Positions 1,389 to 4,578 of a stretch of 8,937 nucleotides of DNA are shown in pieces. The position numbers and the translations under genes were made by a program. The DNA comes from Gemmatimonadota bacterium (GTDB taxonomy: Bacteria > Latescibacterota > UBA2968 > UBA8231). The DNA lies in NCBI GenBank assembly GCA_002712305.1, contig PATE01000049.1:1-8937 (forward strand). Reading direction: 5' to 3'. How positions within the stretch are numbered: the stretch's first letter is position 1; the number at the start of each line of letters is the position of its first letter. The notes below the pieces were generated by a model, which had not been told where the DNA came from, did not search any database, and worked only from the letters and a program-made list of their open reading frames with translations.

Positions 1389-2024
1389 ATGCGGGTATCG
1401 TCCCGGTGGATTTCGCTTGTCGCTCTCTGTTGCGTGGCTATGCTGGCTGCGTGCGGCGGCGACGGCCCCCAGGCGGACCTCGATGCCGCCAAGGCGGCTC
1501 TCGACGGCGCCAAGGCAGCAGGCGCCGAGACATACGCCAGCAGTGAACTGTCGGCCGCTCAGAGCGCGTACACCGCCGCCAAGAGTGCCTTTGATGAAGA
1601 GGCCGGCAAGATGTTCAAGGACTGGGAGCCTGTCGCTTCTCAGATCTCCGACGCCAAGGCCAAGGCCGATCGCGCCCGGAGTTCCGCTTCATCCGCCAAG
1701 TCACAGGCCAAGAGTGGTGCGGACGGTGCGATTGCCGCCGCTGCCGCTGCCGTCTCCAGTGCTCGTGAAGCTCTTGATGCGGCACCTGCCGGCAAAGGCA
1801 CCGAAGGCGACATCGAAGAGTTGAGTGCTGCCCTCGACGCTGCTGACGCCGATCTGAGCGCCGCCCGTTCCGCTTCGGCTCGCGAAGACTTCGCCAGTGC
1901 TTCGACGAAGGCTGGAAGCGCGCGCTCGAAGGCCGCCGATGTGAGCACAGGTGTTGCCAGTGCCGTCGCCAGGTATGAGGAGCTCGTCGAGAAGAACACG
2001 CCCTGGTACATGCGGGGTAGCTGA
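1389..2024 (+). CDS. Alanine-rich helical lipoprotein, unknown function
   Basis: This encodes a 211-residue lipoprotein. The signal peptide MRVSSRWISLVALCCVAMLAAC ends in a LAAC lipobox with the lipidated Cys at residue 22. Gly at the next position, with no Asp, predicts outer-membrane sorting if Lol rules apply. The mature part is almost all Ala, Ser, Lys, Asp and Glu in helix-forming repeats (AAKAALDGAKAAG, SAAQSAYTAAKSAF, SAREALDAA, SARSASAREDFASAS), as in long helical periplasmic lipoproteins such as Lpp-like or DUF4398-like proteins. I cannot assign it to either. It ends in the distinctive NTPWYMRGS. A predicted promoter lies upstream and a hairpin terminator just downstream, so it may be a single-gene, strongly expressed unit. 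Next to an L,D-transpeptidase, a link to peptidoglycan or outer-membrane tethering is attractive but inferred. Confidence 0.8.
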   Translation: MRVSSRWISLVALCCVAMLAACGGDGPQADLDAAKAALDGAKAAGAETYASSELSAAQSAYTAAKSAFDEEAGKMFKDWEPVASQISDAKAKADRARSSASSAKSQAKSGADGAIAAAAAAVSSAREALDAAPAGKGTEGDIEELSAALDAADADLSAARSASAREDFASASTKAGSARSKAADVSTGVASAVARYEELVEKNTPWYMRGS

Positions 2025-2072: not shown

Positions 2073-2693
2073 ATGAACAAGAAAAACGACCGGAGAGGAT
2101 TTCCTCTCCGGTCGTTTTGCATGTACGTCGCTCTGTCGCTGCTGCAGCCGTTGCTCGCCGTCGCATCTTCGACGACGGATTCAGTACATCAGAACCATCG
2201 CCGTCTACTTCAGGAGTTGACGTCAGCACAGACGATGGCAACGCCGTATTTGGTCATCGATACCCGTGACAACGTCGTTCAGCTGCGTGACACAGACCAT
2301 CGACTGTTGCGCTCGGCCGTCGCGGCCACAGGGGCGGCCCGTCGTTTTCAGGGACGGGAGAAATTGTGGAAGTGGAGTTGGAAGTTTGCCACACCCAGTG
2401 GTCGTTTCAGCATTCTGCGAAAGGTCAGCGATCCGTTGTGGGTCAAGCCGGACTGGCACTTTCTTGAAGTGGGAGAACAGGTCCCCGTCTTCGCCGAAGA
2501 CCCACGTCGATTCCAGCGAGGCGTGCTCGGTCGATACGCGCTCTATTTCGCCAAGGATCTGATGATTCACGGCACTTTGTACGAGGTCAACCTCGGCAAG
2601 TCGATCACCCATGGCTGCGTCCGCGTCGGCGCTGAAGATCTGGAATACTTCTACGAACACGTGGATGTGGGATGGCCCGTCTACATCTACTGA
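2073..2693 (+). CDS. L,D-transpeptidase (YkuD family), exported
   Basis: This enzyme family forms 3-3 cross-links in peptidoglycan, or attaches proteins to it, by an L,D-transpeptidase reaction in the periplasm through a catalytic cysteine. The YkuD signature is visible near the end: His 166 (HGTLY), then SITHGCVRV with His 180 and catalytic Cys 182 (numbered from ATG 2073), about 14 residues apart as expected. The N-terminus reads as a signal peptide: basic MNKKNDRRGFPLRSF, then CMYVALSLLQPLLAVASS. The start is unresolved. ATG 2073 has AGGA 11 bases upstream and gives a charged n-region, but the frame then runs through the terminator hairpin at 2083-2118. ATG 2121 avoids the hairpin but has no charged n-region and no clear ribosome binding site. 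It is followed by a diverged, catalytically dead paralogue. The family call is strong; the start is not. Confidence 0.88.
   Translation: MNKKNDRRGFPLRSFCMYVALSLLQPLLAVASSTTDSVHQNHRRLLQELTSAQTMATPYLVIDTRDNVVQLRDTDHRLLRSAVAATGAARRFQGREKLWKWSWKFATPSGRFSILRKVSDPLWVKPDWHFLEVGEQVPVFAEDPRRFQRGVLGRYALYFAKDLMIHGTLYEVNLGKSITHGCVRVGAEDLEYFYEHVDVGWPVYIY
2083..2118 (+). terminator. Near-perfect terminator-like hairpin, possibly acting in both directions
   Basis: Bases 2083-2099 and 2102-2118 are an uninterrupted 17-base-pair inverted repeat (AAAACGACCGGAGAGGA pairing with TCCTCTCCGGTCGTTTT) around a TT centre. The real loop is probably ATTT on a 16-pair stem. The 5' arm starts with an A tract and the 3' arm ends in TTTT, so it resembles a bidirectional intrinsic terminator 58 bases after the lipoprotein stop. 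It lies inside the longest reading frame of the next gene (from ATG 2073). That either pushes that gene's start to ATG 2121 or makes this an attenuator. The T tract is only four bases, so read-through is plausible. Confidence 0.8.
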
Positions 2694-3283
2694 CTCGTCT
2701 CATTTTGGCCTGCCCATGTCAGCCACGGTATCTGTCGCGGGCCTGGCGAACCCGCGATTTCTTGATGCTGTGCAGCGTCTGGCTGTGGGTGGGGTCCGTG
2801 GCCGCCGACGCAGACGCCCCTCTTCATCAGATCAACGCGTCCCTTGCCCAGTGGCTCGAACTGGCACGCACCGACGCACCTTATCTGGTCATCGATCACG
2901 AGGCCGCCCAGGTTCGTCTCTATCATCAGGCTGCCCTGTTGCGCACGTGCCCGGCCCAACTGTCGCAGCCGCCCGCAGTCGTGGGTCCTTCGGCACCTCT
3001 CGCGGTGGCCGACCACTTGAGACACGTCAGACCAGCCGGTCCCTACGATCGTGTGCAAACCGGTCCCTTCGATTGGGAACGGTATCTGGCCGATGCGGCG
3101 ACCGAAACATCAGCCCTCTTGCTTACCGATGAAACCCTCATCTCGGCTTTGGAGATCTGGAAGTCACCCCACGACATTCGCCTGCAACCACACGACCTGC
3201 AGGCCCTGTTCGACGCCGTCGATGACAGCACTCTTGTCGTTCGGCTGCCGCAGGGGTGGTCTTCCGTTCAGGAGGCACCGTGA
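2672..3283 (+). CDS. Diverged YkuD-like paralogue lacking catalytic residues (pseudoenzyme)
   Basis: This encodes up to 203 residues, overlapping the end of the transpeptidase gene by 22 bases. By eye it aligns with that protein. APYLVID...QVRLYHQAALLR (about 69-91) matches TPYLVID...VVQLRDTDHRLLR. The C-terminal stretch IRLQPHDLQALFDAV...VVRL (169-192) matches VRVGAEDLEYFYEHV...VYIY without gaps. In that register the active-site THGC becomes SPHD (165-168), so Cys is Asp 168, its His is Pro, and the earlier His is Thr 152. It is therefore probably a catalytically dead transpeptidase paralogue, not merely an unknown protein. A hydrophobic segment MLCSVWLWVGSVAADA (from 32) after RAWRTRDF looks like a signal peptide. 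Starts at ATG 2672, TTG 2705 or ATG 2765 are possible, none with a good ribosome binding site. Its stop overlaps the next gene (GTGA). Confidence 0.7.
   Translation: MARLHLLTRLILACPCQPRYLSRAWRTRDFLMLCSVWLWVGSVAADADAPLHQINASLAQWLELARTDAPYLVIDHEAAQVRLYHQAALLRTCPAQLSQPPAVVGPSAPLAVADHLRHVRPAGPYDRVQTGPFDWERYLADAATETSALLLTDETLISALEIWKSPHDIRLQPHDLQALFDAVDDSTLVVRLPQGWSSVQEAP
3270..3275 (+). promoter_or_regulatory. Ribosome binding site fixing the ceramidase-like gene start
   Basis: AGGAGG stands 4 bases before GTG 3280, which overlaps the TGA stop of the preceding gene (GTGA, 3280-3283). This is a classic translational coupling arrangement, and it rules against the upstream ATG at 3256. Confidence 0.75.
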
Positions 3284-4578
3284 CCCTCCGGGCTGGCTGG
3301 GCAGCCGTCGAAATCACACCACCTGTCGGGACCGATATGGGAGGCTATTGGGGGCGCCCAGGGCCGAGTCTGGGGATCCATGATCCACTGTATGGACGTG
3401 TGTTGGTCTTTGAGCTCCATGGGCAACGCGTCGGAGTGATCAGTCTCGACCTGGTCGGTCTCGACGCCGATGTCGCCCAACAGTTGTGTGAACGGATCAG
3501 TGCACGTATCGATTCCTCACCCGAGAATTTGCTGCTGTGCGCGACCCACACCCATAGTGGACCCCTGAGTCTGTCCTTTCGAGGCATGGGGGAGGTCCCC
3601 GTCGAATACGTGGAGGGACTGGCGCCGATGCTGATCGAGGCCGCGCGCCAGGCCGTAGACGGTCTTGCGCCATGCCACCTGACCACCACGAGTGTCGATG
3701 TGGAGATGGCGATCAATCGTCGAGCCCAGCTCAGGACACTTCCGGGTGGCTGCGATCCGGCCGGTCTGGTCCCCAGGCAGGCGCATGCTCTGCAGATCGC
3801 AACCGATGCAGGCTCTGCAGTACTGGTGCACTATGCCTGTCACCCGGTGATACTCGGGGGTGCCAACCGCCTTCTAAGCGCCGATTGGCCGGGCAGCATG
3901 GTCGGCCACATCGAACAGGCCACGGGCGCCGAGCTGGCCATGTTCATCAACGGCGCCTGCGGCGATCTGAACCCCCCCCTGGGGAATGCAGATTTCGATG
4001 TCGTCCAACAGCTGGGAATGGTCGTGGGCCGTGCGGTCGTTGAGGGTCTCTCGGGATCTCAGCCCATGCTCGCGGATGTCATTGGTGCAACTCACGAGCG
4101 AATCGATCTGCCCCTGATGGACCCACCCTCCGCCCTGCGCACAGCAGCCGGAGCTTCCATCGATTCGCTGAAACTGGCGATCAAGAAAGCAGCCTTCAGC
4201 GACGACCTGTCCCTGCGCAGGGTCCCCGAGGCTCGTTTGGCCTGGGCGCGGGAGCTGCTGTCGCTTCCACGCGAGGCGATGCGTCACCAGTCCTTTGCCA
4301 TCAAGGCGCTACGAATCGGCAAACTGCGCCTGATCGGCCTGGAGGGTGAGATCTTCGCACGATACCAGATAGACCTGGAGCAGCACCACGAACTGGCGTG
4401 GCTGTGTGGATACGTCGGTGGGTGCGTTGGTTATATCCCCACGGCGGATGAGTATGATCGTGGGGGCTACGAGATCGACGATGCCTACAAGGTGTACCCG
4501 AGTGTCTTGATGGTCTCCCCGGATGCCGAGACATTGGTGCGCGCGTCGATCGAGCGCGCTCTGGCCACCCTGGGGTAG
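3280..4578 (+). CDS. Neutral/alkaline non-lysosomal ceramidase-family protein (short form)
   Basis: This encodes 432 residues from GTG 3280. It belongs to the neutral ceramidase N-terminal family, zinc amidases that split ceramide into sphingosine and fatty acid. Numbered from this start, the expected metal-site motifs are all present: ATHTHSGP (His 90 and 92), YACHPVILGG...SADWPG (His 188), LEGEIFARY (Glu 357) and GYIPTADEY (Tyr 385). The motif that carries the nucleophile in true ceramidases, GDVSPN, reads GDLNPP here (Asn 231 in place of Ser), so ceramidase activity is doubtful and another amide or ester substrate is possible. Full-length neutral ceramidases are about 650-700 residues with a C-terminal domain; this protein ends after the catalytic domain. 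No signal peptide is visible, so it is probably cytoplasmic. It is translationally coupled to the dead transpeptidase paralogue. Confidence 0.85.
   Translation: MTLRAGWAAVEITPPVGTDMGGYWGRPGPSLGIHDPLYGRVLVFELHGQRVGVISLDLVGLDADVAQQLCERISARIDSSPENLLLCATHTHSGPLSLSFRGMGEVPVEYVEGLAPMLIEAARQAVDGLAPCHLTTTSVDVEMAINRRAQLRTLPGGCDPAGLVPRQAHALQIATDAGSAVLVHYACHPVILGGANRLLSADWPGSMVGHIEQATGAELAMFINGACGDLNPPLGNADFDVVQQLGMVVGRAVVEGLSGSQPMLADVIGATHERIDLPLMDPPSALRTAAGASIDSLKLAIKKAAFSDDLSLRRVPEARLAWARELLSLPREAMRHQSFAIKALRIGKLRLIGLEGEIFARYQIDLEQHHELAWLCGYVGGCVGYIPTADEYDRGGYEIDDAYKVYPSVLMVSPDAETLVRASIERALATLG

Follow-up and report, generated by a model that had tools for sequence, protein, structure and literature searches.

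A predicted catalytically dead YkuD paralogue paired with an active-type L,D-transpeptidase in a widespread lipoprotein gene cassette

In Escherichia coli, the lipoprotein Lpp is attached to peptidoglycan by the L,D-transpeptidases LdtA, LdtB and LdtC. Another L,D-transpeptidase, LdtE, is presumed to act in crosslinking. Catalysis by the YkuD domain is known to need a Cys. Dead paralogues of enzymes can compete for substrate or dimerize with the enzyme, and the dead LytM factors EnvC and NlpD control amidases. Lpp is detached by DpaA (also LdtF or YafK), which lacks the Arg that the transpeptidases have two positions beyond the catalytic Cys (PMC8263019). DpaA-like enzymes are found in many bacteria that lack Lpp and there have no known substrate (PMC8263019).

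The gene cassette described here resembles the E. coli system in that it comprises a lipoprotein, a candidate attaching YkuD enzyme with the CxR signature and, in relatives, a candidate detaching enzyme of the DpaA type without the Arg; most of these relatives also share with Lpp a basic lipoprotein C terminus. The differences are that the lipoprotein is larger (~200 aa) and has no Lpp family match above cut-off, that the genes are clustered, that the DpaA-like part is fused to a lipoprotein-like helical domain and that the cassette contains an extra, apparently dead YkuD protein. The version from which this analysis started, which has neither the DpaA-like gene nor the basic tail, lies in the draft genome (4.77 Mb) of a Gemmatimonadota bacterium placed in the Latescibacterota, on contig PATE01000049.1; "the window" denotes the whole 8,937-nucleotide stretch that was analysed (Table 1). 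Genes B and C are the active-type and the dead YkuD gene, and gene A is the DpaA-like gene of relatives. EnvC and NlpD, like C, are dead relatives of a wall enzyme fold and provide the nearest precedent for C as a regulator, although theirs is another fold and they act on amidases, whereas the proposed target of C is a YkuD transpeptidase.

Table 1. Features of the cassette and its surroundings in the window
Feature	Position	Strand	Basis
DUF4398-like Ala-rich helical lipoprotein, 211 aa, lipobox LAAC, proposed tether	1389..2024	+	PF14346; position upstream of B conserved
Gene B, active-type YkuD L,D-transpeptidase, 206 aa	2073..2693	+	PF03734; HGT...HGCVR
Terminator-like hairpin between lipoprotein gene and B, over B's annotated start	2083..2118	+	dG -29.7 kcal/mol, z -7.4
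Gene B active-site stretch: His166, His180, Gly181, Cys182, Arg184	2568..2624	+	
Gene C, predicted exported, predicted catalytically dead YkuD paralogue, 203 aa (172 aa from 2765)	2672..3283	+	hhalign, AlphaFold, Foldseek/VIA; conserved after B
Degenerate site of C: Ser158 for His166; Pro166-His167-Asp168-Ile-Arg170 for His-Gly-Cys-Val-Arg	3143..3181	+	
Ceramidase-like gene after C	3283..4578	+	Also follows C in the window's family

The product of gene B matches the YkuD family above the Pfam cut-off (E 8.4e-14), and its domain contains the His, the Gly-Cys pair and the Arg two residues after the Cys. A sequence-only reading of the window had assigned its active site to His166, His180 and Cys182; all three were recovered, together with Gly181 and Arg184, and the Arg is present in B at all of the 80 loci compared below. 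By its complete catalytic motif, B is a predicted active L,D-transpeptidase. Its first codons as annotated are overlapped by the hairpin of Table 1, which has a perfect 16-bp stem and a T run. Translation from the in-frame ATG at 2121 would begin with a clean signal peptide, cleaner than that from the annotated start, and this ATG is perhaps a likelier start than 2073. A second YkuD protein of the genome, also bearing HGCVR (L001, G000:C62:33611-34099), is encoded outside the cassette, near a gene that by eye resembles glucose-1-phosphate adenylyltransferase.

Gene C, for which the start at 2672 (common to the relative genome G001) and an ATG at 2765 are both candidates, is far less readily recognized. 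A Pfam/NCBIfam search matched it to no family, and none of 52 C proteins has a YkuD (PF03734) match at cut-off. BLASTP of B against C aligned the N-terminal half alone (36% over 64 aa, E 8e-4); as such a comparison of single sequences is too weak to decide homology, family profiles were used. By hhalign, 16 C proteins and 14 B proteins of the window's class align over 162 columns (probability 95.6, E 1.1e-8), and 52 C proteins of many phyla align with 11 B proteins with a probability of 96.0, an E of 4e-9 and a score of 60.7. The paralogy of B and C that had been read from the window is thus borne out by their families. Derivation of C from the DpaA-like A was considered and rejected, the C profile scoring only 25.7 against A, and on these profile scores C is nearer to B.

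Structure prediction leads to the same place. The AlphaFold model of the window's C (pLDDT 82.2, pTM 0.77) has the YkuD fold that the sequence-only reading had led us to look for: the leading PDB matches found by Foldseek are all YkuD/L,D-transpeptidase structures, and superposition by VIA gives Z 12.6 over 92 residues with LdtMt1 and Z 12.1 over 95 residues with Bacillus subtilis YkuD. A model of a distant C protein from the Aminicenantes (pLDDT 85.6) arrives at the YkuD fold independently, with B. subtilis YkuD as its best match (Foldseek E 6.6e-4, VIA Z 8.4), and the β-sandwich core is present in both models. Together, profiles and models show C to be a YkuD paralogue of B with the same predicted fold.

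What C has not kept is the catalytic apparatus. Its predicted fold is like that of B. subtilis YkuD and of LdtMt1 and LdtMt2 of Mycobacterium tuberculosis, but the active-site His and Cys and the loop that holds them are lost, and with them the His and HGCxR motif of active L,D-transpeptidases. In the merged alignment, every one of the 11 B proteins has Cys in the column of Cys182, but not one of the 52 C proteins does; the columns of His180 and His166 and the Gly of HGC are not conserved among the latter, half of which (26/52) have no Cys at all after residue 45. The column of Asp189, which follows the catalytic Cys, is Asp in 39 of the 52. The loss of the Cys, from which C was expected to be inactive, holds across the family, and an intact HGC motif elsewhere in the chain was looked for in relatives of C and found in none. 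In the window itself, the replacements Pro166 and Asp168 that had been proposed agree with the alignment; the third, Thr152, does not, as His166 of B aligns instead with Ser158. Judged by these residues, C is catalytically dead.

The sequence-only reading had also suggested a search for the pair in relatives, where it proved far more widespread than expected. A scan for B across 84,980 species yielded 571 relatives, and the analysis took in the best 80, whose B is the most similar to that of the window. Going by record titles, at least ten phyla are represented: Bacteroidota (20), Nitrospirota (16), Aminicenantes (9), Latescibacterota (9) and Acidobacteriota (7), with smaller numbers from Eisenbacteria, Nitrospinota, Calditrichota, Ignavibacteria, Myxococcota and others. 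A C-type gene without HGC directly follows B at 78 of the 80 loci, the other two ending at contig ends, a proportion that may be different for B-type enzymes at large because these loci are the nearest to the window's B. In distant phyla the C open reading frames were chosen by position and composition and then checked by profile and by the one independent fold; a profile built on the window's class alone recognizes 46 of the 78 at E < 0.01. The gap between B and C has a median of 10 nt, with a stop/start overlap (TGATG) in several genera, and no fusion of the two was seen. In five genomes of the window's family (L006, L015, L018, L007 and L020) about 1 kb separates them, occupied in L006 and L020 by what appears by eye to be a zinc-type alcohol dehydrogenase gene.

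Co-occurrence follows the same pattern. A search with a single C sequence found the gene in 24 of 194 genomes and a broader profile found it in 49 of 194; among the 60 nearest genomes the C profile detected it in 41, over four families, beside or near B. The four genomes or families of other phyla that have C all have B too, and in two further phyla the identical genomes hold both (1/4 and 2/7, from 4 and 7 genomes only). In one relative genome, G131, the B-like gene is divergent and C is absent. The faster evolution of C (its identity to G001 is 54%, that of B 74%) is accompanied by purifying selection, though weaker than that on B: near pairs, used because dS of C is saturated between the window and G001, give dN/dS of 0.22 and 0.30 for C and of 0.05 and 0.18 for B, and the values for C in near pairs span 0.22-0.34.

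The B-C pair is part of a larger cassette that includes the lipoprotein gene and, in relatives, gene A. In its fuller form the order is lipoprotein with a Lys/Arg-rich C terminus, terminator-like hairpin, A, B, C. Gene A, found upstream of B at most loci, encodes ~360-410 aa in which a lipoprotein-like helical domain precedes a YkuD domain, and the lipoprotein of ~200 aa encoded before it is similar to its N-terminal part. All 14 A proteins compared with the LdtF/DpaA/YafK family NF040599 match it (best E 8.8e-11), at a best score of 41 bits where the equivalog cut-off, at 365, is far higher. The residue two after the catalytic Cys in A is Ala in 44, Ser in 12, Met in 6 and Gly in 3 of 65 proteins, and never Arg. 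The window's family has the lipoprotein, B and C with no linked A, and a full-length A was not found elsewhere in the window genome. That C is kept where A has been lost ties it to B or to the lipoprotein rather than to A. In another genus (g4; L098, L099, L140 and L186), two different DUF4398-like lipoprotein genes precede B, C is divergent and a DpaA-like gene lies elsewhere in the genome. In family f3 (L022-L026, about 1944-2920), C is followed by a gene for what appears by eye to be a PorV/UPF0164-like outer-membrane protein.

The lipoprotein of the window has a lipobox and an Ala-rich helical body. Its match to PF14346 (DUF4398) is below the cut-off (E 5.7e-5), as are the other DUF4398 matches, and the Lpp/OprI profile NF040598 gives no family match (E 0.17). 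It ends in NTPWYMRGS, with neither a C-terminal Lys nor a basic tail. Outside the window's family, 53 of 60 lipoproteins have at least two Lys or Arg among their last five residues, compared with 6 of 78 C proteins, and the terminal residue is Lys or Arg in 47 of 60 (Lys in 24), compared with 14 of 78 for C and 0 of 80 for B; such Lys/Arg-rich C termini occur in most other phyla. Terminator-like hairpins follow the lipoprotein gene at 31 of 74 loci where 2.0 would be expected, and follow A at 1 of 62, B at 3 of 80 and C at 3 of 75. A hairpin in this place would allow the cell to make more of the lipoprotein than of the enzymes, as would befit a structural tether.

With moderate confidence, we favor a reading in which C is an exported pseudo-L,D-transpeptidase, duplicated from a B-type YkuD enzyme and retained as a non-catalytic cofactor of B in tethering of the Braun lipoprotein kind. 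B would most likely link the stem peptide of peptidoglycan to the helical lipoprotein encoded alongside it, much as LdtA, LdtB and LdtC do with Lpp, and in most other phyla the DpaA-like A would cut this link. C would bind B, the lipoprotein or the stem peptide and so tune the reaction, as adaptor, activator or substrate presenter, in keeping with the earlier suggestion, itself an inference, that it regulates, scaffolds or localizes B. The analogy with Lpp is weakest in the window's own family, where the lipoprotein has no basic tail and there is no DpaA-like gene. Other points against this reading are that C evolves faster than B, that no invariant surface motif was found in C across phyla, that no B-C fusion was seen and that a dehydrogenase gene separates B and C in some relatives.

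Among the other explanations, the one that fares best, though unlikely, is that C binds peptidoglycan or the lipoprotein alone, as anchor or chaperone, and is merely co-transcribed with B, making no contact with it. A fold core that has lost its catalytic loop would suit such a protein, as would the longer insert between strands in C proteins outside the window's class and the lipoprotein-like character or N-terminal hydrophobic anchor of some. The near-constant pairing of B and C and their joint presence and absence, even where the DpaA-like gene is lost, argue against this. Somewhat less likely again is a role for B and C in 3-3 crosslinking or another wall reaction with the lipoprotein not a substrate. 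LdtE is among the weak NCBIfam matches of B, and the lipoprotein tail of the window is consistent with this; the conserved linkage with the lipoprotein and DpaA-like genes and the basic tails in most phyla point the other way.

Inhibition of B by C, which would keep the enzyme off until needed, is improbable. The tight coupling of the two genes would preserve the stoichiometry that an inhibitor requires, but the sequence holds nothing to tell inhibition from activation. That C performs some other enzymatic chemistry in the same cleft is very improbable: different C proteins have Asp, Arg, Glu or Ser in place of the Cys, yet no polar residue of the site was found to be conserved across the family. 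A decaying relic, pseudogene or chance open reading frame, which the fast evolution of C might suggest, is effectively ruled out by its conservation across phyla and by its dN/dS in near pairs.

Returning to C as a cofactor of B, the occurrence of the pair with a lipoprotein gene in at least ten phyla suggests an undescribed system that fastens the outer membrane to the wall. More tentatively, since we put this wider claim at somewhat less than even, the pseudo-L,D-transpeptidase family may be an obligate partner in a widespread form of tethering (lipoprotein, attaching L,D-transpeptidase, DpaA-like detaching enzyme and dead L,D-transpeptidase) in Bacteroidota, Nitrospirota, Acidobacteriota, Latescibacterota and other phyla without Lpp. 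In the open papers searched, we found no described family of dead YkuD proteins, none that joins YkuD with a pseudoenzyme and no description of the B-C cassette, DUF4398 appearing in unrelated papers only. The cassette sets a candidate substrate, an attaching enzyme and a regulator side by side, and so gives the DpaA-like enzymes of bacteria without Lpp a candidate substrate that can be tested. Odoribacter laneus and Alkaliflexus imshenetskii (L125, L129) are among its cultured hosts, which puts the question within direct reach of experiment. If the proposal is true, dead relatives of wall enzymes would be partners in transpeptidation as well as in hydrolysis, where EnvC and NlpD have this role.
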